Shown here piece by piece: positions 13,473 through 35,513 of a stretch of 64,000 nucleotides of DNA. The position numbers and the translations under genes were made by a program. The DNA lies in the IMG/VR virus record IMGVR_UViG_3300047510_001751, positions 1 to 64,000 of that record; one strand, given 5' to 3'. Every line of letters starts with the position of its first letter. Positions within the stretch are counted from its first letter, which is position 1. The notes under the pieces were generated by a model that worked only from the letters and a program-made list of their open reading frames with translations, had not been told where the DNA came from and searched no databases. This DNA comes from a virus.

Positions 13473-13476
13473 CAAT

Positions 13477-13502: not shown

Positions 13503-13544
13503 AAGGCACACGGAAGGGGTTTGGATCATGGCAGTATCGCCAAC

Positions 13545-14041: not shown

Positions 14042-14043
14042 AA

Positions 14044-14187: not shown

Positions 14188-14222
14188 TTGTTTACCCTCG
14201 ACTTTTTTGACGATTTTTTGGC

Positions 14223-14265
14223 GGGGAATTTTTTCCCGATTTCATGGATTTAGTTTTTCAATTTC
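14223..14265 (-). repeat. 43-bp dispersed repeat, copy 1
   Basis: Matches the copy at 17419-17461 at 40 of 43 positions (differences at positions 3, 22 and 37 of the element). It contains GGGAA-TTTTT-TCCC, a small inverted repeat. Similarity continues weakly for ~30 more bases toward the downstream small gene (AAAAAAGT.GAG). Sits between tRNA-Leu(TAG) and the 47-residue gene in otherwise non-coding DNA. Confidence 0.85.
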
Positions 14266-14282
14266 GGATTATAGAATCCGAT

Positions 14283-14363
14283 GTCGATGAGAGGACTTGA
14301 ACCTCCACGTCCGAAGACACTGGAACCTAAACCCAGTGCGTCTACCAATTCCGCCACATCGAC
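14283..14363 (-). tRNA. tRNA-Leu (TAG)
   Basis: 81 nt, class II with long variable arm. Acceptor GTCGATG/CATCGAC is perfect, anticodon loop carries TAG, T-loop TTCAAGT. Followed on the minus strand by a 6-bp hairpin (CGGATT/AATCCG). Confidence 0.9.
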
Positions 14364-14410
14364 ATAACCACCACGGCATTCTGGTTTATCTTTCCAGCGC
14401 AAATGATGGT

Positions 14411-14483
14411 TCCTCTGTCTGGGAATTGAACCCAGTTTCCAACTCCCTTGTCGGGGTGTCCTTACCAATAGACTACCAGAGGA
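14411..14483 (-). tRNA. tRNA-like sequence with degenerate anticodon arm (probable tRNA pseudogene)
   Basis: Acceptor (CCTCTG/CAGAGG), D-arm (GTCT..GGAC with loop ATTGGTAA) and a perfect T-arm (CTGGG TTCAATT CCCAG) are all present on the minus strand. The anticodon arm, around CACCCCGACAAGGGAGT, does not fold into a standard 5-bp stem with a 7-base loop, and there is no U at position 33. The isotype cannot be assigned (a GAC reading is possible but weak). Either a decayed tRNA or a tRNA with an odd anticodon arm. Confidence 0.5.
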
Positions 14484-14548
14484 TTGGTGAGTCGGATATG
14501 ATGATCCCGACTCGTATGAAAGATCCGAACATTTCCAGACCTTTCAAA

Positions 14549-14621
14549 GCCCAAGGTCGGACTCGAACCGACGACCTACGCTTTACAAAAGCGTTGCTCT
14601 ATCCAACTGAGCTACTGAGGC
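14549..14621 (-). tRNA. tRNA-Thr (TGT)
   Basis: 73 nt: acceptor GCCTCAG/CTTGGGC (one mismatch, one wobble), D-arm GCTC..GAGC, anticodon stem ACGCT/AGCGT with loop TTTGTAA (TGT), T-loop TTCGAGT. Its first ten bases encode the last codons and TAG stop of the CpeT-like gene. Confidence 0.9.
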
Positions 14622-15136
14622 ATTCTAGCAAATTCAAACCTACCATATTTAGATCCCCAAAGCTGATGTTTATGTTCAGCACAGAATCCACGGTCCATAA
14701 CATAATAATGAGTTGGAGTCAACTCAATTTGATTTTGAAGATAAGTCTCTCGACCCATCCAGTCTACCATACAATCACAACCTTGTATACCCCCGACAAA
14801 TGACTGACCTTGTTGAGTGAGAACTACATCACAGCCAGACTTTAATTTTAGCACATCCTTGTCAATGTTGTCAAGGTGTTTAAATCCAAGATAAGTTTCT
14901 TTATTTTGGATTTCATAATTATAAATTCTAATTTGGTTATTTTCTTGAATTGGTTCAAGAACAAATTGCCTGTATGGTTTATTTAATTGATAATTGTATG
15001 CTTGTTCGCCATAAATTAATCCTTCACCCAAATTTACATGAGTAACTCTAATGTAGGCGTACTTACTTGGGTGAGAAAATGCTTGAATTTTATTTTCAAA
15101 TCTTCCTTCAATTAATCTAAAAAATTCATTAATCAT
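14612..15136 (-). CDS. cpeT: CpeT-like phycobilin lyase/bilin-binding protein
   Basis: 174 residues. Strong CpeT/CpcT family pattern: 'ENKIQAFSHPSKYAYIRV' near the N-terminus, 'YGEQAYNYQLNKPYRQ', 'LKSGCDVVL', 'CDCMVDWMGRETYL', and the C-terminal 'DRGFCAEHKHQLWGS..G.FEF'. In cyanobacteria CpeT helps attach phycoerythrobilin to phycoerythrin; cyanophage CpeT binds the bilin and may act as a carrier. Last codons and the TAG stop lie inside tRNA-Thr. Overlaps the upstream 88-residue gene by 8 bases, so the two are probably co-transcribed. Confidence 0.88.
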   Translation of the reverse strand: MINEFFRLIEGRFENKIQAFSHPSKYAYIRVTHVNLGEGLIYGEQAYNYQLNKPYRQFVLEPIQENNQIRIYNYEIQNKETYLGFKHLDNIDKDVLKLKSGCDVVLTQQGQSFVGGIQGCDCMVDWMGRETYLQNQIELTPTHYYVMDRGFCAEHKHQLWGSKYGRFEFARMPQ

Positions 15137-15395
15137 CTTTTGGCAGTAATTCAGGATTTTCTAATTCAAGTTCAAACATTAATGGATGTACTTCTTCTAG
15201 TATCAAATAGTTAGACCATACATAAAGATCTTCATCATCAAAATCTCTATTACTAAGAGCTTCTGTTTGAATGCCTGGGTGATCTTGAACTATTTGTGGA
15301 AGTTCATCAAAGGTATATGGCATACCTTGAATGAAATACATACGAACTACCTCGCCCATATAAAAGCAATATGATTGAGATAGTGTGTATTTCAT
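15129..15395 (-). CDS. Hypothetical acidic protein (88 aa)
   Basis: An 88-residue protein with an acidic C-terminus ('ELELENPELLPKDD') and no family I recognise. Preceded 20 bases upstream by CTAAATA, a late-promoter-like box. It overlaps the start of the CpeT-like gene, suggesting coupled translation. No signal peptide; one aromatic-rich N-terminal stretch. Could modulate or accompany the CpeT-like protein, but this rests on position only. Confidence 0.6.
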   Translation of the reverse strand: MKYTLSQSYCFYMGEVVRMYFIQGMPYTFDELPQIVQDHPGIQTEALSNRDFDDEDLYVWSNYLILEEVHPLMFELELENPELLPKDD

Positions 15396-15414
15396 TACTT
15401 TTTTCCACTCAATT

Positions 15415-15421
15415 TATTTAG
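15415..15421 (-). promoter_or_regulatory. Late-promoter-like box (CTAAATA)
   Basis: CTAAATA on the minus strand 20 bases before the 88-residue gene. One change from the ATAAATA core, so weaker evidence than other sites. Confidence 0.4.
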
Positions 15422-15426
15422 TGGAA

Positions 15427-15499
15427 TACCCGTGGTCAGATTCGAACTGACCCTGGAAGCATTTTAAGTGCTCTGTCTCTGCCGCTGGACTACACGGGC
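15427..15499 (-). tRNA. tRNA-Leu (TAA) with a short variable arm
   Basis: 73 nt. Acceptor GCCCGTG/CACGGGT, anticodon stem GAGCA/TGCTT with loop CTTAAAA (anticodon TAA), T-arm GTCAG TTCGAAT CTGAC. The variable loop is only 5 bases, whereas leucine tRNAs normally have a long class II arm. The anticodon stem-loop core AGCACTTAAAATGCT is identical to what I recall of T4 tRNA-Leu. Confidence 0.8.
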
Positions 15500-15513
15500 A
15501 TGTGTATGAGACA

Positions 15514-15542
15514 ATCATAGCAGGTTTTGCTGAGATTGTCAA
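15514..15542 (-). promoter_or_regulatory. Sigma70-type promoter between tRNA genes
   Basis: Minus strand TTGACA (15542-15537), 17-base spacer, TATGAT (15519-15514). Transcription would start about 8 bases before tRNA-Leu(TAA) and read into the 88-residue and CpeT-like genes. Confidence 0.75.
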
Positions 15543-15543
15543 G

Positions 15544-15616
15544 TGCTGGTTGTGGGGATCGAACCCACCTGTCTTGCCTTATGAGGGCAGTGCTTTCTCC
15601 AGAGAGCTAAACCAGC
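15544..15616 (-). tRNA. tRNA-Met (CAT)
   Basis: 73 nt: acceptor GCTGGTT/AACCAGC, D-arm GCTC.., anticodon loop CTCATAA (CAT), T-loop TTCGATC. A CAT anticodon could also belong to a lysidine-modified tRNA-Ile2; this cannot be settled by eye, though a separate tRNA-Ile(TAT) is encoded nearby. Its first ten bases carry the end and TAG stop of the HNH gene upstream. Confidence 0.88.
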
Positions 15617-16038
15617 GTTTGTAAAAACTCTCCCCAACTATCACCATAATGTAAGATATGGTGACAATTATGACAAAGAAGATCACATTTGTCAACTTCT
15701 TCTTTAATGGTTTCCCATTTTCTATTAGCAAAAGATCTTCCATCAAGTTTTAATTCTTTTTGAGATGGGTCTCTGTGGTGAAAACATAGAGTTGCTGGTC
15801 TATCTTCGCCACATTTTTCACATTTGCCACCTTTATATTGAAGGGCTTTCCATTTATTAGAATAACCTCTTGCTTTTTGTTCAGTATAAGTGTCTCGGTT
15901 TATTGTAACTGGGTCATTTTTATAACGCCATTTTTGCCTACAAGCATTACTACACCATTTTTTTAGTCGTCCTTTTGTCATTCTCTCATTAAGAATGTCA
16001 CATCCACAACCTTGACAAGTAGTAATATTAGTATCCAT
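15607..16038 (-). CDS. HNH endonuclease with N-terminal zinc finger
   Basis: 143 residues from the ATG at 16038 ('MDTNITTCQGCGC'). N-terminal 'CQGCGCDI...WCSNACRQKWR' is a zinc-binding module; the C-terminal core 'CEKCGEDRPATLCFHHRD', then 'CDLLCHNCHHILH', is an HNH nuclease. Such free-standing HNH proteins are usually homing endonucleases. The chosen start is the one downstream of the TATAAATA box at 16067-16074; a longer frame from 16065 would begin before the predicted transcript start. The TAG stop lies inside tRNA-Met. Confidence 0.82.
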   Translation of the reverse strand: MDTNITTCQGCGCDILNERMTKGRLKKWCSNACRQKWRYKNDPVTINRDTYTEQKARGYSNKWKALQYKGGKCEKCGEDRPATLCFHHRDPSQKELKLDGRSFANRKWETIKEEVDKCDLLCHNCHHILHYGDSWGEFLQTLV

Positions 16039-16066
16039 AATGGTGTTATGAAGATATACATACACC

Positions 16067-16074
16067 TATTTATA
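16067..16074 (-). promoter_or_regulatory. T4-type late promoter
   Basis: Exact TATAAATA on the minus strand, 29 bases before the HNH start codon at 16038 and downstream of tRNA-Ile. It decides the start of the HNH gene. Confidence 0.7.
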
Positions 16075-16090
16075 CAACAAGTGTATGTAA

Positions 16091-16162
16091 TGGGAATACT
16101 GGGAGTTGAACCCAGACTAAGCCCTTATAAGGAGCCCGCTCTAACCATTAAGCTATACTCCC
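16091..16162 (-). tRNA. tRNA-Ile (TAT)
   Basis: 72 nt: acceptor GGGAGTA/TATTCCC, anticodon stem GGCTC/GGGCT with loop CTTATAA (TAT), T-arm CTGGG TTCAACT CCCAG. Reads the rare AUA codon, common in this AT-rich genome. Confidence 0.88.
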
Positions 16163-16195
16163 ATGAAATGAAGTGATTATATCAATTTAATGGCT

Positions 16196-16774
16196 TCATA
16201 TTCGTCCTGTTGCTTTCGATAGCCAATTTAAATTAAGAACTAACCTATGAGAAGTGTTTGTCGAAGAAACTCCTGTGTGAAGCATGTTATTCGGAAACAC
16301 ACAAATTCTATTTTCTATAGATTTTACTATAGTACCGTCAGAAAATTCTGTAAACCCATTATTGGTATTAATGTAATAAATTGCCGTCATTCCTTTTCCC
16401 AAAAAAGAGTTAGATACATCTACATGAAACCCTGCTTTATTAAAGCGTCCTGTGTTGGGGGTTAAATTAATTTGTGCTCTCAATAAAGAAGATATTTGTA
16501 GTTTATCTACAATTGGCTCTATTATAGGATAGTATTCATTTCTTGTAACATCATGTGATACTTGAGTATCTTCAATATAGCGGTGATGAACACTAACTAG
16601 TTTATGTACAAAATGTAAATTACTATTTGGATTTCCTACATAAAGATTATTTGGTAAAATAGTTCCTCTATTCCAAGGAAATTTAGAGCTGTTTGTAGTA
16701 TTTAAAATATTTAAATGCTGAGAGGCTTCTAAAAAATTATCGATCGTTGTTATACTATCTACATATAACATCAA
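16196..16774 (-). CDS. 2OG-Fe(II) oxygenase
   Basis: 192 residues. The iron and 2-oxoglutarate ligands are visible: 'GFHVD' gives HxD, 'PNNMLHTGVSS' the distal His, and 'SHRLVLNLNWL' the Arg that would bind 2-oxoglutarate. 'TAIYYINTNNGFTEF' lies between them, as in prolyl-4-hydroxylase-like enzymes. T4-like cyanophages commonly carry several such genes; substrates are unknown. The start overlaps the end of a 42-residue gene by 20 bases; a second Met directly follows the first, so the exact start may be one codon later. Confidence 0.83.
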   Translation of the reverse strand: MMLYVDSITTIDNFLEASQHLNILNTTNSSKFPWNRGTILPNNLYVGNPNSNLHFVHKLVSVHHRYIEDTQVSHDVTRNEYYPIIEPIVDKLQISSLLRAQINLTPNTGRFNKAGFHVDVSNSFLGKGMTAIYYINTNNGFTEFSDGTIVKSIENRICVFPNNMLHTGVSSTNTSHRLVLNLNWLSKATGRI

Positions 16775-16883
16775 ATTTTTTCTTCATTTGTTTTACACGT
16801 TTTTTAGCAGCTCGTAAAGCCTGAGGTTTAAGAGTCCTCTTTTGTTCTTTGCTGCTGTGATGTTGCCAGTTTGGAACAGTCAT
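16755..16883 (-). CDS. Small basic protein (42 aa)
   Basis: Short frame from ATG at 16883, rich in Lys/Arg ('QALRAAKKRVKQMKKKF'). A TATAAATA box lies 22 bases before the start, as for other late genes here, and the end overlaps the 2OG oxygenase start, suggesting coupling. No family recognised; the charge suggests nucleic-acid or capsid association, which is inference only. Confidence 0.5.
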   Translation of the reverse strand: MTVPNWQHHSSKEQKRTLKPQALRAAKKRVKQMKKKFDVICR

Positions 16884-16904
16884 TGGATTTCTTTGACCTG
16901 TGTG

Positions 16905-16912
16905 TATTTATA
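16905..16912 (-). promoter_or_regulatory. T4-type late promoter
   Basis: Exact TATAAATA on the minus strand, 22 bases before the 42-residue gene and the 2OG oxygenase gene behind it. Confidence 0.65.
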
Positions 16913-16951
16913 GTACCACCTACAGGTGAGCTTGTCAAGCCGATTGTGCCA

Positions 16952-17272
16952 CTAGTCTCTTTGTCTCCAGTCATCAGGCTTATCCTTGGTCCACCAATCA
17001 ACCATATCATCAATACTATCGAAACCACTCTTACCAAACCGTTCGTGTCCAGTGCCACCTATATCAAGTTGGTTTAAAAAATCATCCATATCTCCCTCCA
17101 CCATATGTGGATTTTCTGCTGTTCGTCTCGCCTGTCTCAACATAGTACCAGCAGTTCGATTAGCTTTGGCTAATTTTTCTGCCCATATCATTTCTTCCAA
17201 GCTCACTTCTTCATGTTGAGCGATCTTGTTACAGATACCTTCTAAACGTAGACGATATTGTGTAGACAGCAT
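16952..17272 (-). CDS. Conserved cyanophage hypothetical protein (106 aa)
   Basis: 106 residues, mostly helical and charged ('LSTQYRLRLEGICNKIA', 'SLEEMIWAEKLAKANRTA') with an acidic C-terminal part ('GFDSIDDMVDWW'). I recall similar proteins in other T4-like cyanophages but no known function. It has both a strong sigma70-type promoter (17326-17354) and an ATAAATA late box (17293-17299), so it may be expressed throughout infection. Confidence 0.75.
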   Translation of the reverse strand: MLSTQYRLRLEGICNKIAQHEEVSLEEMIWAEKLAKANRTAGTMLRQARRTAENPHMVEGDMDDFLNQLDIGGTGHERFGKSGFDSIDDMVDWWTKDKPDDWRQRD

Positions 17273-17292
17273 GTATATTCTCCATATAGAAT

Positions 17293-17299
17293 TATTTAT
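17293..17299 (-). promoter_or_regulatory. Late promoter box (ATAAATA)
   Basis: AATAAATA context on the minus strand 20 bases before the 106-residue gene. Confidence 0.55.
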
Positions 17300-17325
17300 T
17301 AGGACCCTTAACCCCTGACAGAGCT

Positions 17326-17354
17326 ATCATACTGAGGTTTTGGGAAATTGTCAA
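17326..17354 (-). promoter_or_regulatory. Sigma70-type promoter
   Basis: TTGACA (17354-17349), 17-base spacer, TATGAT (17331-17326) on the minus strand; transcription start near 17319, giving a ~45-base leader for the 106-residue gene. The stretch 17355-17459 upstream holds only the repeat copy and AT-rich DNA. Confidence 0.8.
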
Positions 17355-17418
17355 GGGTATTGACTTTAAAAGCAAAATGGTTTAATATGGTACTCAACTT
17401 TTTTACTCATTTTTACCT

Positions 17419-17461
17419 GGAGAATTTTTTCCCGATTTCGTGGATTTAGTTTTTGAATTTC
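17419..17461 (-). repeat. 43-bp dispersed repeat, copy 2
   Basis: 40/43 identical to 14223-14265. It begins exactly at the stop codon of the 401-residue spike-like gene (TGA, 17460-17462) and extends into non-coding DNA. Confidence 0.85.
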
Positions 17462-18665
17462 AGTTTAGGTAAATCTGTGTAGCAACTACAGAAACTTTAG
17501 CTGGTTCTAAAGTTATTTTAGATGTCTCAGCAAAAGAAATTAATGCTTGGGTTTGAGTTAATTCAATGGCTCCTAATTTACTACCAACATTAACTTTAAA
17601 TTCTTTTTCATCTAAAGTCATTTTACTGACTTGACCAGCAGCTTCAAATTTATATCCACCTGTAGTAGTAGACATCTCAACTTTACCACCGCTAGAAACT
17701 TTATACGTAGCAATTTCTGGTGTTGGATTTGCTCCTATCTCAAGGACATAAGACTCTTGTTGAGTGCTTTCCCGAATTGAAGTTCCTGTGATAACAGTCT
17801 TTTGTTTTCCTATAGTTTTTTCCGATAGGTTTCCTTTTACTTCCCTAGCATAGTCAAGATCTACGTTCAAAGAGTAATTTTTGTTTACGATTTGTTTGTA
17901 ATCTCCTGTCACACCTAGTTCATAATTACCATTTACAGTATAATTAATACTACCTGGAGTAGAAACAGATGTGACAGCGTTAGGATTATACTGTTCAATT
18001 TGTACTTCACCTGCCCCTTTGGAATATTCTCCGCCGCTTAAATTTTTCTCAAAGAAACTAGTGTTTAGATTAAAAGTTCCCCCAAACATGTTAATTCTGC
18101 CTCCTTCTTTACCAGCAGAAATGTTTATGTCTTTTCCTGAAGTTAAATTTAATGTGCTCGAAGCATTTAATGTAATATTTTCTCCTTTTATTACAGCTTC
18201 TCCGCCAATACATTCAATGAGAACATCACCATATACTTTCAAAGAATATGCTGGTAGTTTTGTTTCGTCTATTCCACCTTTACTATTAGTTTCTTTTTTT
18301 AAAGATCCATCATCTGGTCTTCCCTCAACTTCAATGGCAACAGACTTTGTTTTTTGTAGTTGGGATTCAGATTTCATGATAAGTTTTCCACCACAGCCAC
18401 TTTGAGATGGAGAACCAGTGCCAAAAATTATATTTCCTTGGTTATCAATATGGAAAGCAGATTTTCCATCAGTAATAGCAAATCCAGAAGAGCCATCTTC
18501 TGGAAAAGTATAGGTAGTTAGAGTCCATTTGCCAAGAATATAAGAATAATCTGGAATAGGACCTTCACCATAGCTAACAGATAAATCCCCAGTTGAATTA
18601 GGAACTGTACCTTTAGTTACATCTGGATTTGAAGCTGGTTTGTTAGTTACAGACATTATGGACAA
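17460..18665 (-). CDS. Baseplate spike / beta-helix protein (gp5 C-terminal-like)
   Basis: 401 residues rich in short repeated beta strands ('DVLIECIGGEAVIKGENITL', 'SGKDINISAGKEGGRINMFG'), the pattern of VgrG/gp5-type triple-stranded beta-helix spikes. It lies directly downstream of, and overlaps by ten bases, the gene with the gp5-type OB domain. In T4 one protein (gp5) holds OB fold, lysozyme and spike; here the OB domain and a helix-like domain appear to be on two genes. Role at the membrane-piercing tail tip is inferred from fold and position. Confidence 0.65.
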   Translation of the reverse strand: MSIMSVTNKPASNPDVTKGTVPNSTGDLSVSYGEGPIPDYSYILGKWTLTTYTFPEDGSSGFAITDGKSAFHIDNQGNIIFGTGSPSQSGCGGKLIMKSESQLQKTKSVAIEVEGRPDDGSLKKETNSKGGIDETKLPAYSLKVYGDVLIECIGGEAVIKGENITLNASSTLNLTSGKDINISAGKEGGRINMFGGTFNLNTSFFEKNLSGGEYSKGAGEVQIEQYNPNAVTSVSTPGSINYTVNGNYELGVTGDYKQIVNKNYSLNVDLDYAREVKGNLSEKTIGKQKTVITGTSIRESTQQESYVLEIGANPTPEIATYKVSSGGKVEMSTTTGGYKFEAAGQVSKMTLDEKEFKVNVGSKLGAIELTQTQALISFAETSKITLEPAKVSVVATQIYLN

Positions 18666-21600
18666 TCAATATATTTACCTGTTCCGATCTTGGTGTATCC
18701 TCTGGTCTCAAGTTCAACTTTATCTAGACAATTTAGACTTGGTAATACTCTAGCACCAGCACCTCCACCACCTCTAATTATAATACTAGGAATGTTCTTA
18801 AATGTTTTTGTTCTATCTAAAACTTCGACACTAAAAACGTATCCCAATTCATTTATTCTAGCTCTAGCAATTCCTTGCTCTCCATTGATAAACACATCAG
18901 GCTCAGAAGTATATCCTCTTCCTGGATTTAATAGTGTATATGAATCAATTACACAAGTTAAATTTTGGTTATCTGGATTATTTTTAACGTATCCTCTTCC
19001 AGTTCTAGTAACTCTAATTTCACTAACGTAGCCATTTTCATCCAATAAAGCTATGGCAGAAGCTCCGTAACCTTTACCACGTACAATAACTCTAGGTGGT
19101 TTTTGATATGGGCAACCCCTTCTACTGATTGGTATGCTTATGATTGCTCCAGAGTCATTTGTTACAGGAACACCAGCAGTTGGCGGATTGATACATGGGA
19201 CCAATGGTGTTATAATGACTGGTTCATCTTCTATAATGTCACCAAGTACAATAATTTGAGCTGATGCTCCAGTTCCATTAATAATAAATGTAATTGTTTC
19301 ATTAGTTTCTATTTCCAAATCTTTATTAATGCCAACATAAATTTTTGCTGTGTTGTTGTAAATAACAAACGTTCCAAACAATTTACCGTTGATAATGTCG
19401 TTTGATTTCAATGAAGAACCGTATAGTACATATTGTAAATTAGTTCCATCAGGAACATTAGATGTAGTTACAGTAAATTCTGCCGTTTCTCCTTCCATAT
19501 ATTCTATTTTATCTGATTCGACAAAGAAAGATGGTGTAATGATAGTAACTTCTTCGTCTTCTGGTATAGGATCAGCAGAAATTATTACTGAAGTAGCATC
19601 ACCATTTTCAACGCCAACAATACTAAATGTCAATAACTCAGAATTTTCTATATCAGCATCTTTTGCTATTTGTACAAGAACTGTAGCAGCATTATTAACT
19701 ATAGTAAATGTTCCAGATAATTCATATTCAATAATATCAGTTTTTTCGATTTCTGGTCCAGATAATTCGTAATTAACTACTGTATTGTCTGGAACATTTA
19801 CTGATGTAATTGTATAAGTAATTGTTTCTCCTTCATCATAAACAATCTTATCAGACTCAACAAAATAATACGGATCTTCTGGAATATCATCCCCCAAAAT
19901 AGTGACAATAGCCGAAGCATTAGTGTTATCAATACTAAAGATAAGTCTTTCACTTGGGTCTGGAATGTCTTCATCAATTAAATTACCATCCTCATCTTCT
20001 ACTTGAGTAGAAAAATCATTATTAATTGTTGTTTTAATTTTAACCTCAGCAAAATTATTCACAACTGTAAACGATCCTGTTAATTGACCACCATCAACAT
20101 CATTTGAACTGATGTCTCCAGAAATTGTGTATGATAGCGTTACGTTATCAGACACATTTTGAGTTACTATATTAAAAGTTATTTCTTCTCCTTCAAAAAA
20201 AGAATTTCTATTTGGAATAACAGTATAAGTAGGAAGAGTGGGAAGAATTGTATTTAAAGTTGTCTTAGTTTTGACAGGAGATGTAATAAAATTAGCGGGT
20301 GGGTTTAAAATAGTAGTTGATTGCGTTGATGTAATCTCTCCAATGCCAGTAGGTAATTCACTAATTGGATCTTTAATAGCATTCAAATCATAATTTAAAA
20401 TTTCACATACAAAAATTTTCCCATCAGGGAACGAAACTACAGATCCTTCTGGAGTTGTACCTTCAGAAAGTTTTATTTGAAATGTTTCAACATTTTCATC
20501 TATATCATCAGCTAAAGTTTTAAACACCAAAGTTTTTTCTGATTCTCCTGGAGCAAAACCTAATGTTCCTCCATTAGTAGGTTTGATAAAATCAATTCCT
20601 TCTGTTGCAGATCCATTAATTACTTGATATTTGACGCTAGAAGACACTAAAGTGTTTCCTTCTCGAAAAATTGTGAACGTAGCGTTCTTTCCTTCTACTA
20701 CCTGAACATCACTTGATCGATAAACAAAAATATTTTCGAGACTTGCTACATCAGAATCAACTGGAACATCTTCTGCTGGTTCAAAAATACCACCAACAAA
20801 TACGATACTAGTTTCTTCATCTTCTGTAGATTCTTTTGATTCATCACAAATGGAAGATCCAGCTAAAGGACCATCTTCTAATTGCTCGATTAATTTATCT
20901 AACCAATCTTCTGTATCTTCTGTACCACAATCAGTACATTCTTTCGTTACCTTTTCACACTGTGTGGAAGGACCATCACAACTAATACCAAGTAAACTAA
21001 AAACTTCATTGATAGCTGATCCGATTACATTAAGTGGGTCTGCTAAAGTATCTAAGAAATCTTGTAAAGGTCCCAATACTGTACTTAAAATTTCTTCTAG
21101 TCCATTTAAAATTTCGTTAATAATAGACTCTACTACAGCATCAATTAAACATGTAACAGCATTAAATGCTTCCATGAAAATATCTAATAATAAATCAGTA
21201 AGCCACTGTGCTAGAGTGTCTGTAAAATCAGCCATCTCACAGCCAAGGTCATCAAGAATTTCATTGATTACATCTAGTACTGGCTTTAATCTGCTTTCTT
21301 TTTTAGTAATTGGTTGGAAAGGTTCCACACCAAGATCAGGAGCTACTGGTCCAGTGTTAACATTCCCAAGCTCATCTGTAGTTGGAACATCAGCAATCAA
21401 TGTGACTTCCACTAAACCATCAATACCTTCTCTAACTACATTGACAACTTCTCCTTTTGCTCGGGAAACAAAACTGGATACAAGTCTTGTTGCTTTGTTA
21501 ACGTAAGTTCTGGCGATTGATTCGTAATTACTTAACTCTCCGTTAATCTGACTGACATAATAATCTCCAAGCTGACCACCAGATTGTTGATTGGCTGCCA

Positions 21601-22294
21601 GCATTTCAGATAAAATATTTGTTAACCCTCCAGACAAATCAGATTCTGATCCACATTTTGGATTAGCGATTTCCACACATACTTTTGCTCCAGTTGGGTT
21701 TGTAGCAGTGTTTTCAGCAAATAAAGCATAGAAACTTGCTGGGGCTTTTCCAGGTACAGCGGCAGCAATTAATCCAGTTTGCCCAGGTTTAGTATATTTT
21801 GAATCGTCAGCTTCAGCTTCACCACCATCTTTCTTTTTTTCTGGTAGAGGTTCGTGCTTGTAAGGATTTCTTTCTGGATCAAAATATGTCGTAAAAGATT
21901 TACATGTTCCAGATGGATTAGGATCTTTCTCATAATTTTCTATTAGCGTGGACCCAGCTGTATGTCCAATTGATCCCATGATAATTGGTTTTTGTTTATC
22001 AGCATCTAAGTAAAAACCAATTACCCAATTACCTTGTCTTAAGTCTACAGAAGCTCCAGTTGTACCACCATCGGTAAATGGTGTAGTGACTGGCATCATT
22101 ACGTTTGCCCATGGCAATTCATTAGTAGGTGTAGCATCACAGTCCTTCAGATGCTGACCTACAATTCTTACACGATACCTACCAGAATTTTTTGGATCAT
22201 CGTTTTTGTTTGATTCAACTTGTCCAACCCACCAGTTAAATCCATCAGAACCTATTTGATTTATTGGAAACAAAGATGATAATACTGGATCCAT
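18656..22294 (-). CDS. Baseplate hub gp5-like OB-fold protein with Calx-beta repeats
   Basis: 1212 residues. The first ~130 residues match the gp5/VgrG OB-fold region ('NWWVGQVESNKNDDPKNSGR', 'PWANVMMPVT', 'GNWVIGFYLDADKQKPIIMG'). No lysozyme catalytic domain is visible. At residues ~525-640 is a Calx-beta-like domain ('GNTLVSSSVKYQVINGSATE', 'IDENVETFQIKLSEGT'), followed by three related repeats of ~80-90 residues each containing 'FxEGE', 'GxFTVVNN' and 'ET..F.I'. The C-terminus holds 'GYVSEIRVTRTGRGY'-type turns. Position between gp27-like hub and spike-like gene supports a hub role; the repeats may bind Ca2+ or cell-surface glycans. Confidence 0.78.
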   Translation of the reverse strand: MDPVLSSLFPINQIGSDGFNWWVGQVESNKNDDPKNSGRYRVRIVGQHLKDCDATPTNELPWANVMMPVTTPFTDGGTTGASVDLRQGNWVIGFYLDADKQKPIIMGSIGHTAGSTLIENYEKDPNPSGTCKSFTTYFDPERNPYKHEPLPEKKKDGGEAEADDSKYTKPGQTGLIAAAVPGKAPASFYALFAENTATNPTGAKVCVEIANPKCGSESDLSGGLTNILSEMLAANQQSGGQLGDYYVSQINGELSNYESIARTYVNKATRLVSSFVSRAKGEVVNVVREGIDGLVEVTLIADVPTTDELGNVNTGPVAPDLGVEPFQPITKKESRLKPVLDVINEILDDLGCEMADFTDTLAQWLTDLLLDIFMEAFNAVTCLIDAVVESIINEILNGLEEILSTVLGPLQDFLDTLADPLNVIGSAINEVFSLLGISCDGPSTQCEKVTKECTDCGTEDTEDWLDKLIEQLEDGPLAGSSICDESKESTEDEETSIVFVGGIFEPAEDVPVDSDVASLENIFVYRSSDVQVVEGKNATFTIFREGNTLVSSSVKYQVINGSATEGIDFIKPTNGGTLGFAPGESEKTLVFKTLADDIDENVETFQIKLSEGTTPEGSVVSFPDGKIFVCEILNYDLNAIKDPISELPTGIGEITSTQSTTILNPPANFITSPVKTKTTLNTILPTLPTYTVIPNRNSFFEGEEITFNIVTQNVSDNVTLSYTISGDISSNDVDGGQLTGSFTVVNNFAEVKIKTTINNDFSTQVEDEDGNLIDEDIPDPSERLIFSIDNTNASAIVTILGDDIPEDPYYFVESDKIVYDEGETITYTITSVNVPDNTVVNYELSGPEIEKTDIIEYELSGTFTIVNNAATVLVQIAKDADIENSELLTFSIVGVENGDATSVIISADPIPEDEEVTIITPSFFVESDKIEYMEGETAEFTVTTSNVPDGTNLQYVLYGSSLKSNDIINGKLFGTFVIYNNTAKIYVGINKDLEIETNETITFIINGTGASAQIIVLGDIIEDEPVIITPLVPCINPPTAGVPVTNDSGAIISIPISRRGCPYQKPPRVIVRGKGYGASAIALLDENGYVSEIRVTRTGRGYVKNNPDNQNLTCVIDSYTLLNPGRGYTSEPDVFINGEQGIARARINELGYVFSVEVLDRTKTFKNIPSIIIRGGGGAGARVLPSLNCLDKVELETRGYTKIGTGKYIDCP

Positions 22295-26432: not shown

Positions 26433-29400
26433 CTATGCTGTTAATCTTTGAAGTAGCAAATCCTTCATCAATTCTGAAGAGGTTTTACCTGGAGAATTAA
26501 ACATCATTGGCGGTTGGCTAGCTGGCATAGTTGGCATTTGTGGTTGTTGATTATTAATAATCATCATGTCATTTGTTGACTGTTCTTCTTGTGAAGATAA
26601 TTGTTCTATTTGAGCAATTGTATTTTGTTGAGATTGGGAAGCTGGAGAAATAAAATTATTATAAGTTGGCGAATTTAAATTTGTTACTGACGCCATTAAA
26701 TTGTTAGGTGCTGCCGAGAACTGAGAAGTAGATGACACCGCCTGAGCTGGTGGGGTAGCAGTGGCAGAGGGAGTGGGCTGTGGTTGCTGAGGTTTAGCTA
26801 TTGTTGATGGTATTTTTCCTCCTTTAGGTAATGCTATATCAGTTCTACCATGAATCAATTTTAATATCTCCACACCATCTTTGACCATGGACATACCAGC
26901 ACCTGCCCCACCACCAGAAAAATATCTAGTTTCTGCTCCTTCAATGACGGGAGCAAGCATAGAAGTATTTTCTACAGAACTTCCAAATCTATCTCCCGAC
27001 TTTACTGGAGTATAAAAATCAATAGCATTTCTTCCAGTGCCTCCATTTCTAGCACGATGGGCAGCTTCAGCATCTGTAATCCACTTATTTTGTTCGTCCT
27101 TGGTTCCGTTCACAGGGAAAATTCTGCCACCAACGCCAGCATTGCTAAGTTCCATTTTCCTACCAACTCTATCATAAGCTACAGCCATTTGTAATATTAA
27201 TTTTCTCTTGTCTTCCATGCTAACGTTAGGTCCAAAAGAAAGGTCTTGGTGGAAGTCAGCACTTCCTCCAATAACTCCGCTTGGTCCTGTTTTTAAACCA
27301 GTGTCAAAGGCACCATCGCCAATAAGATTGAGGTCCATTCCGCCTCCTCCTCCGCCTCCTCCACCTCCACCAGGACCACCAGTGTTGAGATTTTTCAATA
27401 AATTTTCTAACTTTCCTTCTGGGTCGATCATACTCAGAAGTCTTTCGGCAAATAAATCCTCATTTTGGGTGTCAAGTAATTCTTTTTCTTTTCCAGTAAA
27501 TTCTTCTTCAGCAGATCCTGTTCTTTTTTCTTTAACTTTCTTCAATTCTTTATCAAGTTGTGGCAAAGACCCCCCAACATTAGTTTGAGTAACAGTTGAT
27601 GGAATATCATACTCTTTAGCCATCTGCCCAGCAATACCTTTAAATGTTGGAGCAATTGGTGCCGCTACAGCGCCAGCAGAATTAATGTATTGTGATGTGG
27701 CAGCTAACATAACACCACCAAGAGTGCTCATTGGAGACATATCCAACGGAGCATCTTTTTTAACAACAGCTTCAGTGCCGTGTAGTATTGCCGTGCCTGG
27801 TTTAGTTAATCCTGTGCCAGTTTCATGTGCTCCAGTAACTTTATCAGCTACAGCACCACCAGCCATTCCGCCACCAATTGATCCCACAAGGCCGCCTAGG
27901 ACGGCTCCAATAGCGGCACCAGGGGCAGCGCCAACACCGCCAAACCATACCCCTATAGCCGCTCCTAGAGCAGCTCCAGCCTTTGCTCCGACAGCACCAC
28001 CAGCAGCAGCACCAGCTAATCCTCCGCCAACTCCAGATAATGCTTGAACTTCGCTTTGCCCAGATTGTTTTCTATCAGCATATTCCAATCCAGCAAAAAC
28101 ATATCTAGCAGGACCAGCCATCCTGCCAACATTACCCATGCCACGAACTTTACTTAGAGCACCAACAGCTCGTTTTCCTTGGGTAGGAAGAATAGAAGTT
28201 ATTTTATTTGCTACCTTTGCTTGTGCTTTACCAGGAAGACGCTGTAATTTTCTTACTTTTTGCCTAGCATTTCTTACAGACTTAGGCAGTTTACGGTATA
28301 ATTTTCTAGTTAATCTAGACTTTAAATATTTTACAAGTTTATTTTCTCTTTTCTTTTTTTGTGGTCCTTTAGTTAAATCTTGATAATCAGAAATTCCAGC
28401 AGCATCTCGCTGTGCTTCGAGTTTATTTTCAGACGATTTAGATTCTAGTACTTCGCTTTGTTGTTGTGATATATTTGCCTGTGCTTCAAACTGTTGTAAT
28501 ATTAAACCAAATTTATCTTCAAGTATATTTGTTTGAGATGAAATTAATTCTCCTATTGCTAATTGAGTTTCGATAGAAGCTTTAATTAATTCATTTTGAT
28601 TTTCTAAGTTTTTATTTACAGTATCTAATGTTGCTTGAATTCTACCGAAGTTAACAACAATAGCATCAAATATTTTTTTGTTGCTTGTGTATGTGGATTC
28701 TTTTTTTGGCTTGTTTATTTTATCAAGTAGTTGCTCAAGTAGTTCTGGATCTACTTCATCCTGTAATAGTTCATCGGGTATATCATCTTCAGATCCAAAA
28801 TCCTCATCGTCTTCGTCTTCTCCAGCAGCATCTACAATCTCTTCTTCAATATTTTCTATTACCTGTTCATCATCTTGATCTTCTTTCTCGTCTTCTCTAA
28901 CTTCATTAAGTAAATCATCTAAATTACTACCATAAAGATCATCATAATCTTCGTCATCCATCTCCTCTTCATCTTCTTCTTCATCCTCATCTGGATCTTG
29001 ATAGTATCCATCATAGACTGGAGGAACAATTACTTCAGTTTCATCTGGTTTTAATTTTACTAACTGAAGAATAAGTTCAAGAATTTTAGCACGATATTCC
29101 TTAACCTCTTCATAATCATCACGAACATTTAAACCAGTAGCTAAGAATAACCACTGCCTAACAGCTACTTTATCTTGACTATCTTTATTATCGCCACCTA
29201 ACTTACCAGCAAAATAAATTGCTCTATCAATATCTGATTTAAATTCTAAATCATAAAGTCCATTCTGTCCCCACATGTAGCGGGTCTTGATGTGTTGTAG
29301 TTCTGAAAATAGTTCTGGATGGTTTACCTTTCTAGTAACCTTAGCTTTGAACTCTTCAATCCTTCTTTTATCTTCTGCTATGATGGCATCAATAGCATCC

Positions 29401-30107
29401 ATAATCTCATCTGACTTTTTCTCAAGAGCAGTATCAAGATTATCTACTATTTCATCAGCAAATTCTTTGCCATCATCTACAAATTTATCTCCTGGATTGT
29501 ATACCTGTGTCTGTCCATATTCAGGTAAATATGTATCTACTAACCAATTAATATAGTTCTCTAAGTTATCACCAGATTCATTTTCTAATCCAGGATAATA
29601 TCCAGATTGTTTAATATTTTGTATCAGCTTATCGGCATCACGTTCAGGTAAATTTACAAAAGAAGAAAGCTTTCCAAACAACTCATCCTTTATACCAGTA
29701 AGCCTTGCCTTTAATTTACGCCAGATTTTTTCGCTAACTTGATTGATAGGATACCAACGTATTGGTAAACCAGAAGGAACTTTTGGTTTGGTATCTTCTA
29801 CTCTCGTATCAACAAAGTCTGCTGTTCCAGCAGAAGATATACCATAAAATTCTTTTAACTGACTAGTAATAGCACGAATAGCATCGTTCTCCTTACCAGT
29901 CATTAAATCGCTATCAATACCATCATAGTATTCTGGAAGCAATGATGGCACTAACCATTCATCACTACTAGCAATTAATTTCTTTGCCTGTTCTATTCCT
30001 TCTGAAGTATGTGGAAATACACGATAAGCAATAAGAGTTCCGACAGCAATTTCAGTATTGTCCCTGCCGTTTTTTCTAATAGGTTTTATTGCTTTTGATG
30101 GTATCAT
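26433..30107 (-). CDS. Putative tape-measure / large internal tail protein
   Basis: 1224 residues. It has a charged helical N-terminal third, a very acidic stretch (residues ~370-460, long Glu/Asp runs), a coiled coil ('VLESKSSENKLEAQRDAAG'), a basic patch, then a glycine-zipper hydrophobic segment ('GAAAGGAVGAKAGAALGAA...') able to span membrane, a ten-glycine linker and a C-terminal domain with 'GGRIFPVNG', 'NAIDFYTPV', 'IHGRTDI' that distantly recalls M23 peptidases. Length, composition and position after the frameshifting chaperone-like gene are those of tape-measure proteins (T4 gp29 role). The start overlaps the frameshifted frame's TGA (ATGA). Confidence 0.6.
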   Translation of the reverse strand: MIPSKAIKPIRKNGRDNTEIAVGTLIAYRVFPHTSEGIEQAKKLIASSDEWLVPSLLPEYYDGIDSDLMTGKENDAIRAITSQLKEFYGISSAGTADFVDTRVEDTKPKVPSGLPIRWYPINQVSEKIWRKLKARLTGIKDELFGKLSSFVNLPERDADKLIQNIKQSGYYPGLENESGDNLENYINWLVDTYLPEYGQTQVYNPGDKFVDDGKEFADEIVDNLDTALEKKSDEIMDAIDAIIAEDKRRIEEFKAKVTRKVNHPELFSELQHIKTRYMWGQNGLYDLEFKSDIDRAIYFAGKLGGDNKDSQDKVAVRQWLFLATGLNVRDDYEEVKEYRAKILELILQLVKLKPDETEVIVPPVYDGYYQDPDEDEEEDEEEMDDEDYDDLYGSNLDDLLNEVREDEKEDQDDEQVIENIEEEIVDAAGEDEDDEDFGSEDDIPDELLQDEVDPELLEQLLDKINKPKKESTYTSNKKIFDAIVVNFGRIQATLDTVNKNLENQNELIKASIETQLAIGELISSQTNILEDKFGLILQQFEAQANISQQQSEVLESKSSENKLEAQRDAAGISDYQDLTKGPQKKKRENKLVKYLKSRLTRKLYRKLPKSVRNARQKVRKLQRLPGKAQAKVANKITSILPTQGKRAVGALSKVRGMGNVGRMAGPARYVFAGLEYADRKQSGQSEVQALSGVGGGLAGAAAGGAVGAKAGAALGAAIGVWFGGVGAAPGAAIGAVLGGLVGSIGGGMAGGAVADKVTGAHETGTGLTKPGTAILHGTEAVVKKDAPLDMSPMSTLGGVMLAATSQYINSAGAVAAPIAPTFKGIAGQMAKEYDIPSTVTQTNVGGSLPQLDKELKKVKEKRTGSAEEEFTGKEKELLDTQNEDLFAERLLSMIDPEGKLENLLKNLNTGGPGGGGGGGGGGGMDLNLIGDGAFDTGLKTGPSGVIGGSADFHQDLSFGPNVSMEDKRKLILQMAVAYDRVGRKMELSNAGVGGRIFPVNGTKDEQNKWITDAEAAHRARNGGTGRNAIDFYTPVKSGDRFGSSVENTSMLAPVIEGAETRYFSGGGAGAGMSMVKDGVEILKLIHGRTDIALPKGGKIPSTIAKPQQPQPTPSATATPPAQAVSSTSQFSAAPNNLMASVTNLNSPTYNNFISPASQSQQNTIAQIEQLSSQEEQSTNDMMIINNQQPQMPTMPASQPPMMFNSPGKTSSELMKDLLLQRLTA

Positions 30108-30295
30108 TGATTAGCTGCTGCTCTCTTTGCTTCTTCTTCCTTAAGGTGTTGAATTAACAAGGATACATACACTTCTCTTTCCCAAGGAATTAAATTTTCT
30201 ACTTCCGTCAAAGAATATTTATGATACTGTAACAAAGCAAAATTAGTTCTGAAGTACCCTTCCAAACTATTTTGGAAGAGTGCTATACGAAAAAA
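30104..30295 (-). CDS. -1 frameshift extension of the gp26-type gene (GT-like)
   Basis: Open frame with no ATG at all, reached by a -1 slip at T TTT TTC (30289-30295). It adds about 60 residues after the slip site, including 'LEGYFRTNFALLQYHKYSL' and 'NLIPWEREVYVSLLIQHL', then an acidic/basic tail ending with TGA at 30104. The segment 'YSL..VENLIPWERE.Y..LL..HL' resembles C-terminal parts of frameshifted tail assembly chaperones. Full fusion is about 297 residues. A stem-loop (CTTCCAAA/TTTGGAAG) lies ten bases after the slip site. The TGA overlaps the ATG of the putative tape-measure gene. Confidence 0.75.
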   Translation of the reverse strand, partial: FFRIALFQNSLEGYFRTNFALLQYHKYSLTEVENLIPWEREVYVSLLIQHLKEEEAKRAAANQ

Positions 30296-30996
30296 TTCTG
30301 TAACCCTTCTATAGTATATTCAGATTCTACTCCAGTATTAGGATTGATTACTTTAAACTTATGAATAAGACGAGGCATTGATTCATAGAAAGTTTGAATT
30401 GCTTCAAATTGTTTTGCTGTAAGACTTTCCACAAATTCTTTCATTTCTTTTTTAGAAGTTGTAGAAGAGTCCCATACTTCTTCCGTGTTAAAAATTTGAT
30501 CAATTGAATCAGCAATAAAATCAAATATTTCTTCTGTTTTAATATTTTTATTAAGAAATTCTGATTCAATAAATCTATCCATACCAGGATATTTCATGAC
30601 AATACCAGTAGTATCATCAAGCATAATTTTACTTGTATGACCTTCTGGTTTAAAAACATTTACATCATTGATATTAATAGACACTTCCATCTGTGTTGTG
30701 TTGTCATCTTGACAAGTAACATTCATAATAATCTCTTCACTTACCGAGGCAGCTCTAATTTTTAAAAAGATATACTCAAGATCAAAGCTTGGGAGATCAT
30801 CTACCTTAATTCTTGATTGAACACAATTTTTAATCAGATCTTTGACAGCATTTTTGATGTCCTTTTCTTCTTCCGATTCCAAAGCTAACAGTAAAACCTT
30901 TTCTTCTTTCACTACAAAAGGTCTATACTTAATTGTCTTACCAGTAGAAGGTAGTTCTAGTTCGTATGTAGGAATTCCAATCTTTGGTAATGCCAT
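30283..30996 (-). CDS. 26: Baseplate hub / tail assembly chaperone gp26-like protein
   Basis: 237 residues as the unshifted product. 'LPKIGIPTYELELPSTGKTI' and 'KYRPFVVKEEKVLLLALESE' at the N-terminus are typical of T4 gp26-type baseplate hub proteins in cyanophages; 'LTAKQFEAIQTFYESMPRL' is near the end. The frame stops at TAG just after a slippery T TTT TTC, and an open -1 frame continues. This is the same logic as G/GT chaperones next to tape-measure genes. Late box ATAAATA lies 27 bases upstream of the start. Confidence 0.8.
   Translation of the reverse strand: MALPKIGIPTYELELPSTGKTIKYRPFVVKEEKVLLLALESEEEKDIKNAVKDLIKNCVQSRIKVDDLPSFDLEYIFLKIRAASVSEEIIMNVTCQDDNTTQMEVSININDVNVFKPEGHTSKIMLDDTTGIVMKYPGMDRFIESEFLNKNIKTEEIFDFIADSIDQIFNTEEVWDSSTTSKKEMKEFVESLTAKQFEAIQTFYESMPRLIHKFKVINPNTGVESEYTIEGLQNFFV
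30289..30295 (-). promoter_or_regulatory. -1 ribosomal frameshift site (T TTT TTC)
   Basis: Heptamer in the correct register (codons AAT TTT TTC GTA TAG). Ten bases later an 8-bp perfect stem CTTCCAAA/TTTGGAAG with 4-base loop can act as stimulator. Confidence 0.75.
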
Positions 30997-31022: not shown

Positions 31023-31029
31023 TATTTAT
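31023..31029 (-). promoter_or_regulatory. Late promoter box (ATAAATA)
   Basis: ATAAATA on the minus strand 27 bases before the gp26-type gene, overlapping the end of the tail-tube-fold gene. Confidence 0.55.
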
Positions 31030-31733
31030 CCGTTGTATTTACGGATATCTACATTCCAATATGTGTGACGAGTATAATAAAAATTAGCACTCACCTTTGT
31101 AATTTGAGATGATCCATATGATAATGGAACAGCATCAATAGAATAAGGATATACATTTTCTAATACACATACTAAAGATACTCTTCCGTTGGGAGCGTTC
31201 TGACCTCTTTCTGCTTTAGATATTCTCAATGTAGCTTGATATTCTTCTGGGTATTGTAATCTATTAATTCGATTGTCTGCTCTTTTTATAGCAAAACTTT
31301 TAACATCCTTCAATAAAGATGATGTTGCTTTTTCTTCAAACATAGTATCACCAAATATAAATCCATGCCAAGCATTTAGAAATTTAAATGGAATCATATT
31401 GGCATCACACATCCACGATAAAGAAAAGTCACTAACCATTCTTGTGTGAGCATAATTGATAGTTCCTTCACCTAAATATCTGCCATTGATTTGACCAGTA
31501 GCAGCAGAAATATTTGGAAGTTGTGCCTCATCACAAAACATATTAATTAAGGCACCTGGCTGTCCAGTAGTGGTATTTTCTGGAAGTTTTATTCCTAGTC
31601 TACCAATAGTATTAACTAGGCTGCTCAGCTTACCATTGGTAAAATCAAATTCAACATCATAACCATTGGACATCGCCATACCGCCATTGGCGGCAATAGC
31701 AGCTACGAAGTTGTCTATTGATTTGGTTGCCAC
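31026..31733 (-). CDS. Tail-tube-fold protein, probable gp54 baseplate tube initiator
   Basis: 235 residues with the gp19/gp54 family look: 'LINMFCDEAQLPNISAATG', 'GEGTINYAHTRMVSDFSLSW', 'FKFLNAWHGFIFG', 'VSLVCVLENVYPYSIDAVPL', 'SANFYYTRHTYW'. Tube proteins and tube initiators share this fold. Its place next to hub and gp48/gp53 genes, rather than beside a sheath gene, favours the gp54 role (first ring of the tube on the baseplate). An exact TATAAATA lies 21 bases before the start. Confidence 0.72.
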   Translation of the reverse strand: MATKSIDNFVAAIAANGGMAMSNGYDVEFDFTNGKLSSLVNTIGRLGIKLPENTTTGQPGALINMFCDEAQLPNISAATGQINGRYLGEGTINYAHTRMVSDFSLSWMCDANMIPFKFLNAWHGFIFGDTMFEEKATSSLLKDVKSFAIKRADNRINRLQYPEEYQATLRISKAERGQNAPNGRVSLVCVLENVYPYSIDAVPLSYGSSQITKVSANFYYTRHTYWNVDIRKYNG

Positions 31734-31753
31734 TCTAAATACAGTCGGAGGTT

Positions 31754-31761
31754 TATTTATA
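31754..31761 (-). promoter_or_regulatory. T4-type late promoter
   Basis: Exact TATAAATA on the minus strand for the tube-fold gene. The divergent gp4 gene begins only 4 bases beyond it, so the site also lies in the gp4 leader. Confidence 0.7.
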
Positions 31762-31764
31762 TTT

Positions 31765-32202
31765 ATGGCGTACTCTGGTATCTACAAACCTATCAACCCA
31801 AAAAAGTACAGGGGCAATCCCACTAGAATTATCTATCGTTCTATGTGGGAGAGAAAGTTTATGGTATTTTGTGATAACAACGATAGCATTGTAGAGTGGG
31901 GTAGTGAAGAAGTTATCATCCCATACCGTTGTCCTACCGATGGCAGAGTACATAGATACTATCCTGATTTTTATGTAAAGATTAAAACTAAACAAGGAGT
32001 TATCAACAAGTATCTGATTGAAGTTAAGCCAAAGAAGCAAGTCTTAGGTCCACCAGAAAAACCAAAAAAGAAAACAGCTGCTTGGAAAAGAGAGGTTCTT
32101 ACATACATGAAGAACCGTGCCAAGTGGTCTGCTGCTGAAGACTTTTGTGAAGATAGGCAGATGAAATTTTTAATCCTCACCGAAGATCATCTAGGAGTAT
32201 AA
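31765..32202 (+). CDS. 4: Head completion protein gp4
   Basis: 145 residues from the ATG at 31765 ('MAYSGIYKPINPKKYRGNP'), which matches the usual gp4 start; the frame is open further upstream but that part lies over the divergent gene and its promoter. Conserved gp4 segments: 'IIYRSMWERKFMVFCD', 'WGSEEVIIPY', 'GRVHRYYPDFYVK', 'YLIEVKPKKQ'. The spaced E, D and E-x-K pattern is that of PD-(D/E)XK-like nuclease folds. gp4 finishes packaged heads before tail joining. First of four plus-strand late genes. Confidence 0.88.
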   Translation: MAYSGIYKPINPKKYRGNPTRIIYRSMWERKFMVFCDNNDSIVEWGSEEVIIPYRCPTDGRVHRYYPDFYVKIKTKQGVINKYLIEVKPKKQVLGPPEKPKKKTAAWKREVLTYMKNRAKWSAAEDFCEDRQMKFLILTEDHLGV

Positions 32203-34178: not shown

Positions 34179-35513
34179 ATGTATTTTTCATTCATACCAA
34201 ACATAGAGTACGACAAAAAACCAATTCAGTATCCATTTTCTGAATCAGATTTTGTTGTAGCTAAAAATTTCTTTAGAAGATATCAAGTAAATCCAGATGT
34301 CTTTTCATACTCAGTTTACTTTAAAAAATATGCTATCCAAGATGGTGATAGATTAGATACTATTGCCGAAGCAGCATACGGTAATTCTTTTTATGATTGG
34401 GTAATTGCTTTAACTAACAATATGATAAATCCTTTGTTTGATTTACCATTATCAAGTGATGATCTAAGAAAATACTTAGAATCAAAATACGACGATCCAT
34501 ATTCAACAATCAAACATTATGAAGTAATTAGTAACCAAGAGCAAATTGAAGCTTTTGGAAAAGTTATTATTCAAGGTGGCACTATAGTTGACGAAACTTT
34601 TTATAATAGTTCTGAGAGATATATTGTTGGCACGTTACCACAGGTAGATCCAACCGTAGAAACTATTCCCATTAATAAAGTAATTGATACTAGAATAACT
34701 ACAAACATTCAAGAATTTAATGGCACTTATATCGCCCCAAACGGAACTGGAGTAGGAAGTAATGGTGGATTTGCTGTAGGTCCACATTTAAAATTTGGAA
34801 ATATTAAAGGTGGAGTAAGATGGGCTACATTAAAAGCTATTGATGCTACAAATTTCGAAAGTGTAGAAGGATTAGTTATACGAGGGAATGATACCAACGG
34901 AGGAGAAGTTCCTGATATCGCTGGGGAAGAAGAATTGAGGTTACAGTATCAGGTTGGTGGAACAGATCCCGACGAATGGATTACTATTGGAGTTATTGTT
35001 CCGACAACATCCGAAGGCAGCAATGCTGGAGACGAATTTAATTTGTACTCAATTAACTTACCAGAGGGAGCTAAACAAAACAATACATTTTTCAGATTAT
35101 ATCAAATTAGTAGTAGTGGTCCTAGCAATGATCATTACGGTATTCGTAGTATAGAATTTAAAGGATCATATGAAAAAATAACACCTCTTGATTACGAGGT
35201 AATTCCGTTAGATCAAAACTCTTATATAATTGATGGAGTATATTGGAAATACGATGGTCAAAATTGGACCAGAAAAATTTCAACAGGTGTCAAATATAAT
35301 ATCAATAATATTATAACAGAAATTCCTGGGCAACAATTATGCCAACCTGTATATATTTTTGAATACGAAGAACAACAAAATGAAAAGAAAAGAGAAATTT
35401 ATTTATTGAAACCATCTTACTTAGATGCTTTCTTAACTGACTTTAGAAAGACAAATTTATATGGTAAGTCAAGTGACTTTATTAACAATAGATTAAAACG
35501 AACTGGCATATAA
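34179..35513 (+). CDS. 53: Baseplate wedge protein gp53
   Basis: 444 residues. The N-terminus 'DFVVAKNFFRRYQV', 'YAIQDGDRLDTIAEAAYGNS' and 'YDWVIALTNNMINPLFDLPL' is the gp53 signature (a LysM-like region). C-terminal 'REIYLLKPSYLDAFLTDFRK' is also typical. Residues ~175-335 form an extra beta-rich insertion ('GGVRWATLKAIDATNFESVE', 'FRLYQISSSGPS') not found in T4 gp53, probably a surface domain. Ends at a shared bidirectional terminator. Confidence 0.87.
   Translation: MYFSFIPNIEYDKKPIQYPFSESDFVVAKNFFRRYQVNPDVFSYSVYFKKYAIQDGDRLDTIAEAAYGNSFYDWVIALTNNMINPLFDLPLSSDDLRKYLESKYDDPYSTIKHYEVISNQEQIEAFGKVIIQGGTIVDETFYNSSERYIVGTLPQVDPTVETIPINKVIDTRITTNIQEFNGTYIAPNGTGVGSNGGFAVGPHLKFGNIKGGVRWATLKAIDATNFESVEGLVIRGNDTNGGEVPDIAGEEELRLQYQVGGTDPDEWITIGVIVPTTSEGSNAGDEFNLYSINLPEGAKQNNTFFRLYQISSSGPSNDHYGIRSIEFKGSYEKITPLDYEVIPLDQNSYIIDGVYWKYDGQNWTRKISTGVKYNINNIITEIPGQQLCQPVYIFEYEEQQNEKKREIYLLKPSYLDAFLTDFRKTNLYGKSSDFINNRLKRTGI

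Follow-up and report, generated by a model that had tools for sequence, protein, structure and literature searches.

A conserved -1 frameshift site at the end of gene 26 and the tail assembly chaperone pair that it very probably encodes in a T4-like cyanophage

What is encoded at the end of gene 26 in a T4-like cyanophage, where a slippery heptamer, a reading frame without ATG, and a very long next gene lie side by side? The window, i.e., the whole stretch of 64,000 nucleotides that was analysed, belongs to a virus record of 190,248 bases from a T4-like cyanophage. It contains a photosystem reaction-centre gene (PF00124), and gp32 (PF08804) and gp53 (PF11246) as T4-like genes. The best match of its gp26 in the phage collection is Synechococcus phage Sf-FR1, at 75%, and a megablast search of the gp26/gp51 locus against phage records did not find a close relative. 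Gene 26 is very probably a tail assembly chaperone gene that yields two protein forms through -1 ribosomal frameshifting. The locus comprises the following features:

31026..31733, minus strand: upstream neighbour, tail-tube-fold protein (gp54-like tube initiator); PF23849 Phage_TTP_2, E 2.4e-52, and phrog_45 tail tube, E 9e-41.
30283..30996, minus strand: gene 26 homologue, putative short chaperone form (G / TAC-N), 237 aa; PF12322 T4_baseplate, E 6.7e-70, and phrog_150 baseplate hub, E 3.6e-76.
30296..30319, minus strand: Shine-Dalgarno-like stretch upstream of the heptamer, possible upstream stimulator; weak, mean z -1.0 against synonymous shuffles.
30289..30295, minus strand: slippery heptamer T TTT TTC; in the gp26 frame, the end of codon 234 and codons 235-236.
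30259..30278, minus strand: hairpin CTTCCAAA-ATAG-TTTGGAAG, starting 10 nt past the heptamer; from sequence, fold energy, and covariation.
30104..30295, minus strand: -1 frame extension (T / TAC-NC C-terminal part; cyanophage 'gp51'), 63 aa, predicted fusion product 297 aa; phrog_634, E 3.2e-27.
26433..30107, minus strand: downstream neighbour, 1224 aa, candidate tape-measure protein, in ATGA overlap with the extension; assigned by position and length only.

Other parts of the window hold further coding and tRNA sequences. An ORF of 493 aa (51632..53113, minus strand) has S-layer homology and OprB-type porin domains, and represents a cyanobacterial-type outer-membrane porin in a phage genome. 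An ORF of 1212 aa (18656..22294, minus strand) matches baseplate hub/tail lysozyme at residues 4-803, while its C-terminus matches head closure Hc2 and a baseplate wedge family, an unusual combination of domains. The gp53-like baseplate wedge protein (34179..35513, plus strand; residues 1-123) has an added reelin sub-repeat-like stretch (E 4e-4, below the Pfam cut-off). A cluster of seven tRNA genes includes a tRNA-like gene with an ambiguous two-base anticodon (ca) at 14407..14483 on the minus strand.

The 3' end of gene 26 reads ...CAG AAT TTT TTC GTA TAG on the minus strand, and the in-register T TTT TTC that the sequence-only reading had placed at 30289-30295 is read there directly. The 24 large ORFs of the window contain one in-register T TTT TTC in 15,131 codons, and this copy is located at the end of gene 26. 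Counted in any frame, TTTTTTC is not over-represented in the window (33 found vs 37 expected). The 8-bp stem claimed ten bases past the heptamer is present with that spacing; its arms are CTTCCAAA (30278..30271) and TTTGGAAG (30266..30259), and its loop is ATAG. The same reading described a -1 frame of about 60 codons without ATG that ends in an ATGA overlap. This frame has 63 codons by count, its translation is FFRIALFQNSLEGYF...AAANQ* (63 aa) with Met at no position, and its stop at 30106..30104 overlaps the ATG of the next gene at 30107.

The site and the frame are shared by relatives. In the window and 83 relatives, the end of gp26 carries T TTT TTC, and each extension is in the -1 frame. 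A wider set that includes more distant loci has the extension in -1 at 106/106 loci and the heptamer at 105/106, the exception being CBA120; 104 of these heptamers are TTTTTTC and one is TTTTTTT (phiM7). Nine further phage records, from Aeromonas, Nitratidesulfovibrio, Rhizobium, Serratia, Vibrio, and cyanobacterial phages, contain seven TTTTTTC, one TTTTTTG (RHph_I1_9), and one non-canonical site (Serratia 2050H1). Combined, the -1 frame is found in 115/115 loci with a detectable extension and T TTT TT(C/T/G) in 113/115; the two loci that lack it are both Ackermannviridae. The alignment of relatives proposed by the sequence-only reading thus speaks for conservation of the heptamer, and close relatives that have lost it were not found. 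The codon before the heptamer is AAT, AGT, TCT, GAT, or GGT, so that the amino acid varies while the third base is always T. In this cyanophage, a one-base backward slip of the ribosome at the 3' end of gene 26 is almost certain.

Ackermannviridae and related Vibrio phages (loci L088, L124, L091, L227, and L210-L226) have the extension in -1, with the heptamer replaced by NTT TTC or NTT TTT before the stop. Examples are GAG ATT TTC ATT TAA and CTT TTT CAA TAA. Kutter-type phages have a stop in the -1 frame shortly upstream, and residues ahead of the first ATG of this frame are conserved, which makes a non-canonical slip site likely.

The proposed mechanism gives gene 26 two products. Most ribosomes would stop at TAG and release the 237-aa short form (G / TAC-N). 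A minority would slip by -1 on T TTT TTC, aided by the downstream hairpin, and produce the 297-aa gp26-gp51 fusion (GT / TAC-NC). If lambda is taken as the model, the domain shared by both forms would hold the tape measure protein, the extra C-terminal helical segment would recruit the tail-tube or hub protein and start assembly, and neither the short form nor the fusion would stay in the virion. In lambda itself, both G and GT attach to the tape measure, and contact with the tube protein is made by the T part (PMC5009743). We infer that slippage takes place and at what rate, which partners are bound, and that both forms are missing from the virion. The G/GT logic put forward by the sequence-only reading is supported by the conserved site, the -1 extension, and a gene order like that of tail chaperones.

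In a different explanation, gp26 belongs to the baseplate hub as a structural subunit, and the fusion is a minor structural variant rather than an assembly chaperone. Database names indeed say baseplate hub, and earlier genetic work on T4 assigned gp26 to the hub (PMC3004832). The same source, however, lists T4 gp26 and gp51 as hub assembly chaperones, with gp51 absent from the final particle, and the two-form design and the gene order are those of tail assembly chaperones. The structural explanation keeps a small chance of being right. Tail assembly chaperones of T4-like phages are reported to have been identified by Vladimirov, Gautam and Davidson 2022 (doi 10.1016/j.virol.2021.11.003), and the TAC-N / TAC-NC genes of that paper appear to be the same identification as the chaperone pair described here. 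PMC10885494 cites it for T4-like phages in which frameshifting is replaced by two genes, a short one and a longer fusion, and PMC12846349 cites it for poly-T -1 signals that occur in their TAC-N genes. The 'baseplate hub' protein can be re-read as a chaperone, as the sequence-only reading had proposed, but this interpretation is not new, because of the listing in PMC3004832 and the 2022 identification. By these sources, the chaperone pair was recognised in T4-like phages by 2022, and the present locus is a well-supported addition. The quantified conservation, the hairpin, and the copy-number contrast with T4 described below support the earlier identification.

The extension has a match in phrog_634 ('baseplate hub assembly catalyst', gp51) and a second one in the tail of phrog_150. 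Substitutions among relatives fall on codon positions 1, 2, and 3 of the -1 frame at 28, 15, and 57%. Since it has both the phrog_634 match and this codon-position bias, the extension is, on sequence grounds, a real coding sequence. The sequence-only reading treated it as an anonymous T part; this is corrected here, as the extension is the annotated cyanophage 'gp51'.

The extension could also be a separate small gene 51, translated by reinitiation past the gp26 stop or from an internal start. A separate gp51 CDS is annotated in several records, namely S-PM2, Sf-FR1, S-CRM01, and ValKK3. Start codons in the extension frame near the junction were counted at 59 distinct junctions: 17 have ATG, in some relatives at or just past the gp26 stop, 22 have GTG or TTG only, and 20 have none. 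The ATG-bearing junctions agree with a separate gene, whereas 42/59, that of the window included, lack ATG, and 20/59 lack ATG, GTG, and TTG before the conserved part. In the window, a TTG at 30265 is the sole alternative start early in the frame. A conserved start codon with a ribosome-binding site for the extension, which the sequence-only reading had named as evidence against frameshifting, was not found in close relatives. Independent initiation cannot be the shared mechanism; where a relative has an ATG close to the gp26 stop, some product could come from initiation at that codon in addition. Also against a separate gene 51, the heptamer, which lies within gp26, shows no synonymous variation in its codons. 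A naive calculation over 44 dereplicated loci, with codon usage elsewhere in gp26 as the baseline, gives this choice among synonymous codons a probability of ~10^-38; it ignores shared ancestry, which makes the true figure less extreme, while the direction is clear. In T4, moreover, the same segment is made as the C-terminus of a gp26-like protein. A separate gene 51 is highly improbable as the explanation of the locus.

The frameshift reading is further informed by T4, which has a gene 26 and a separate, divergent gene 51. In T4 gp51 (249 aa), PF12322 covers residues 1-201, and the C-terminus matches the extension family. Profiles of the frameshift fusion and of the extension were built with the T4 proteins left out. 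The fusion profile aligns with T4 gp51 residues 16-244 (E 6e-13; the database was very small), while in T4 gp26 the alignment stops at the gp26 end. The extension profile matches T4 gp51 and not T4 gp26. When the profiles of gp26 and T4-type gp51 are compared, the FF junction at the gp26 end is aligned to gp51 residue 201 (P 5e-6). PF12322 is present in two copies in 5/5 T4-type genomes and in one copy in 16/16 others tested. The window's 190-kb record has one copy, and the second paralogue of T4 style is absent from it. By these alignments and copy numbers, T4 gp51 corresponds to the frameshift fusion. Because T4 gp51 consists of a gp26-like domain and the extension in one frame, cyanophage 'gp51' is read as the frameshifted tail of gp26. 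In 2010, cyanophage gp51 was described as lacking the first ~200 residues (PMC3037559), and the fusion as T4 gp51 counterpart explains this remark. The annotation is thereby corrected: cyanophage gp51 is a frameshifted tail and not a truncated gene, and many records omit it or assign it a false start. In one record (IMG/VR 2974754850, ~2982-3750), the T4-type gp51 gene is in two frames, by sequencing error or by a real frameshift, unlike the T4-type gp51 elsewhere, which is a single ORF.

The sequences that flank the heptamer bear on how the frame is changed. The 45 bases after it are more stable than synonymous-codon shuffles (mean z -2.1, with 82% below -1; 67 distinct loci). Covariation in the hairpin is modest, with 10 cells changed on both sides vs 4.6 in shuffles and a score of 0.158 vs 0.124. 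The sequence and the register of the hairpin vary among relatives, and it is weak, shifted, or missing in some lineages. By these comparisons of sequence, the downstream hairpin is under selection beyond coding, and it is a probable frameshift stimulator. Anti-Shine-Dalgarno complementarity upstream of the heptamer is slightly raised (mean z -1.0, SE 0.14; 61 related loci).

RNA polymerase might instead slip on the T6 run, so that some mRNAs are one base longer or shorter. Single-base runs can cause such slipping, and the same fusion protein would result. Selection for polymerase slippage should favour longer runs, whereas exactly six T followed by C are present in 104/105 sites, and the downstream RNA hairpin and the weak upstream Shine-Dalgarno-like complementarity fit ribosomal slippage. 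Polymerase slippage thus has an extremely low probability. A lone homopolymer frameshift resembles an assembly error in isolation, yet sequencing error, gene decay, or chance is ruled out, with a probability of practically nil for the first two, because the same frame and heptamer are conserved in more than 100 contigs and cultured phage genomes.

The upstream neighbour shares its phrog_45 match with T4 gp54. A TnsA-like endonuclease-fold ORF (31666..32202, plus strand; PF08722, E 5e-21) has a TTG-start form that overlaps this divergent tail-tube gene (31026..31733, minus strand), and it probably occupies the slot of the head completion protein gp4 in other records. Downstream, a Pfam search of the 1224-aa protein gave no family. 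Genes at the same position in phiM7 and ValKK3 have weak matches to tape-measure PHROGs (1.8e-5 and 1.6e-6), and the T4 tape measure family was absent in 12/12 non-T4-type genomes tested. These two results make a tape measure role for the 1224-aa gene plausible. In cyanophages, the long gene after the frameshift is often labelled hypothetical or endolysin. There is about an even chance that this long gene is the missing tape measure of T4-like cyanophages, loaded by the gp26/gp26-gp51 pair, and that the T4 lineage swapped the frameshift for gene duplication and uses gp29, which is not recognisably related. S-CREM2, with a tail of ~418 nm, has genes of 1565 and 1456 aa after gp26/gp51, but a 2668-aa structural ORF is located elsewhere in its genome. 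Both of these unusually long S-CREM2 genes (12913..21984) are annotated as endolysin, and they may be a tape measure and its partner. The conserved site points to a tape measure candidate, and it is directly testable in cultured cyanophages.

The locus can be compared with other tail assembly chaperone loci at the level of protein and of layout. The HK97 pair gp13/gp14 (PDB 2ob9; PF06222), which precedes the tape measure gene, is annotated as related by a -1 frameshift. When an AlphaFold2 model of gp26 (mean pLDDT 87.5) was compared with the PDB, the HK97 tail assembly chaperone 2ob9 was matched with a probability of 0.63 and an E-value of 0.77, which is not significant; among the matches listed, it was the only one with a probability >0.15. 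Alignment of gp26 with the HK97 gp13 family (PF06222) by hhalign gave no signal, the HK97 alignment being very shallow. A PDB sequence search with the gp26 profile gave no match, and Foldseek with a T4-type gp51 model gave no useful match in the PDB. A fold kinship between the gp26 model and the HK97 chaperone is only suggested, because of the E-value of 0.77 and the missing profile-profile signal. Homology between the gp26 family (PF12322) and the lambda group (PF06894) was not found, the HK97 member being the only one compared directly.

The lambda order V-G-T-H is matched here by the tube-fold protein, gp26, the extension, and the long gene. The lambda slippery site is GGGAAAG, in contrast to T TTT TTC here. 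The C-terminal part comprises ~60 aa here, whereas lambda T is annotated with 144 codons. Lambda G and GT likewise consist of a short protein and its -1 frameshift fusion near the gene end (PMC5009743). Phage Adele (Vandenendeviridae / Andersonviridae, PMC12846349) likewise has a conserved poly-T -1 frameshift before its tape measure gene; its motif is GTTTTT, and the likeness is one of locus layout. T4 gp26 is the homologue of the short form, and T4 gp51 comprises the short-form domain and the same C-terminal extension in frame. T4 thus has two divergent paralogous genes without a frameshift, whereas the cyanophage has one gene with a frameshift site. According to PMC5009743, G-T frameshifting is conserved with T4 as the exception, and this exception has a simple form: most T4 relatives tested have the frameshift site, and the T4 type has two paralogues.
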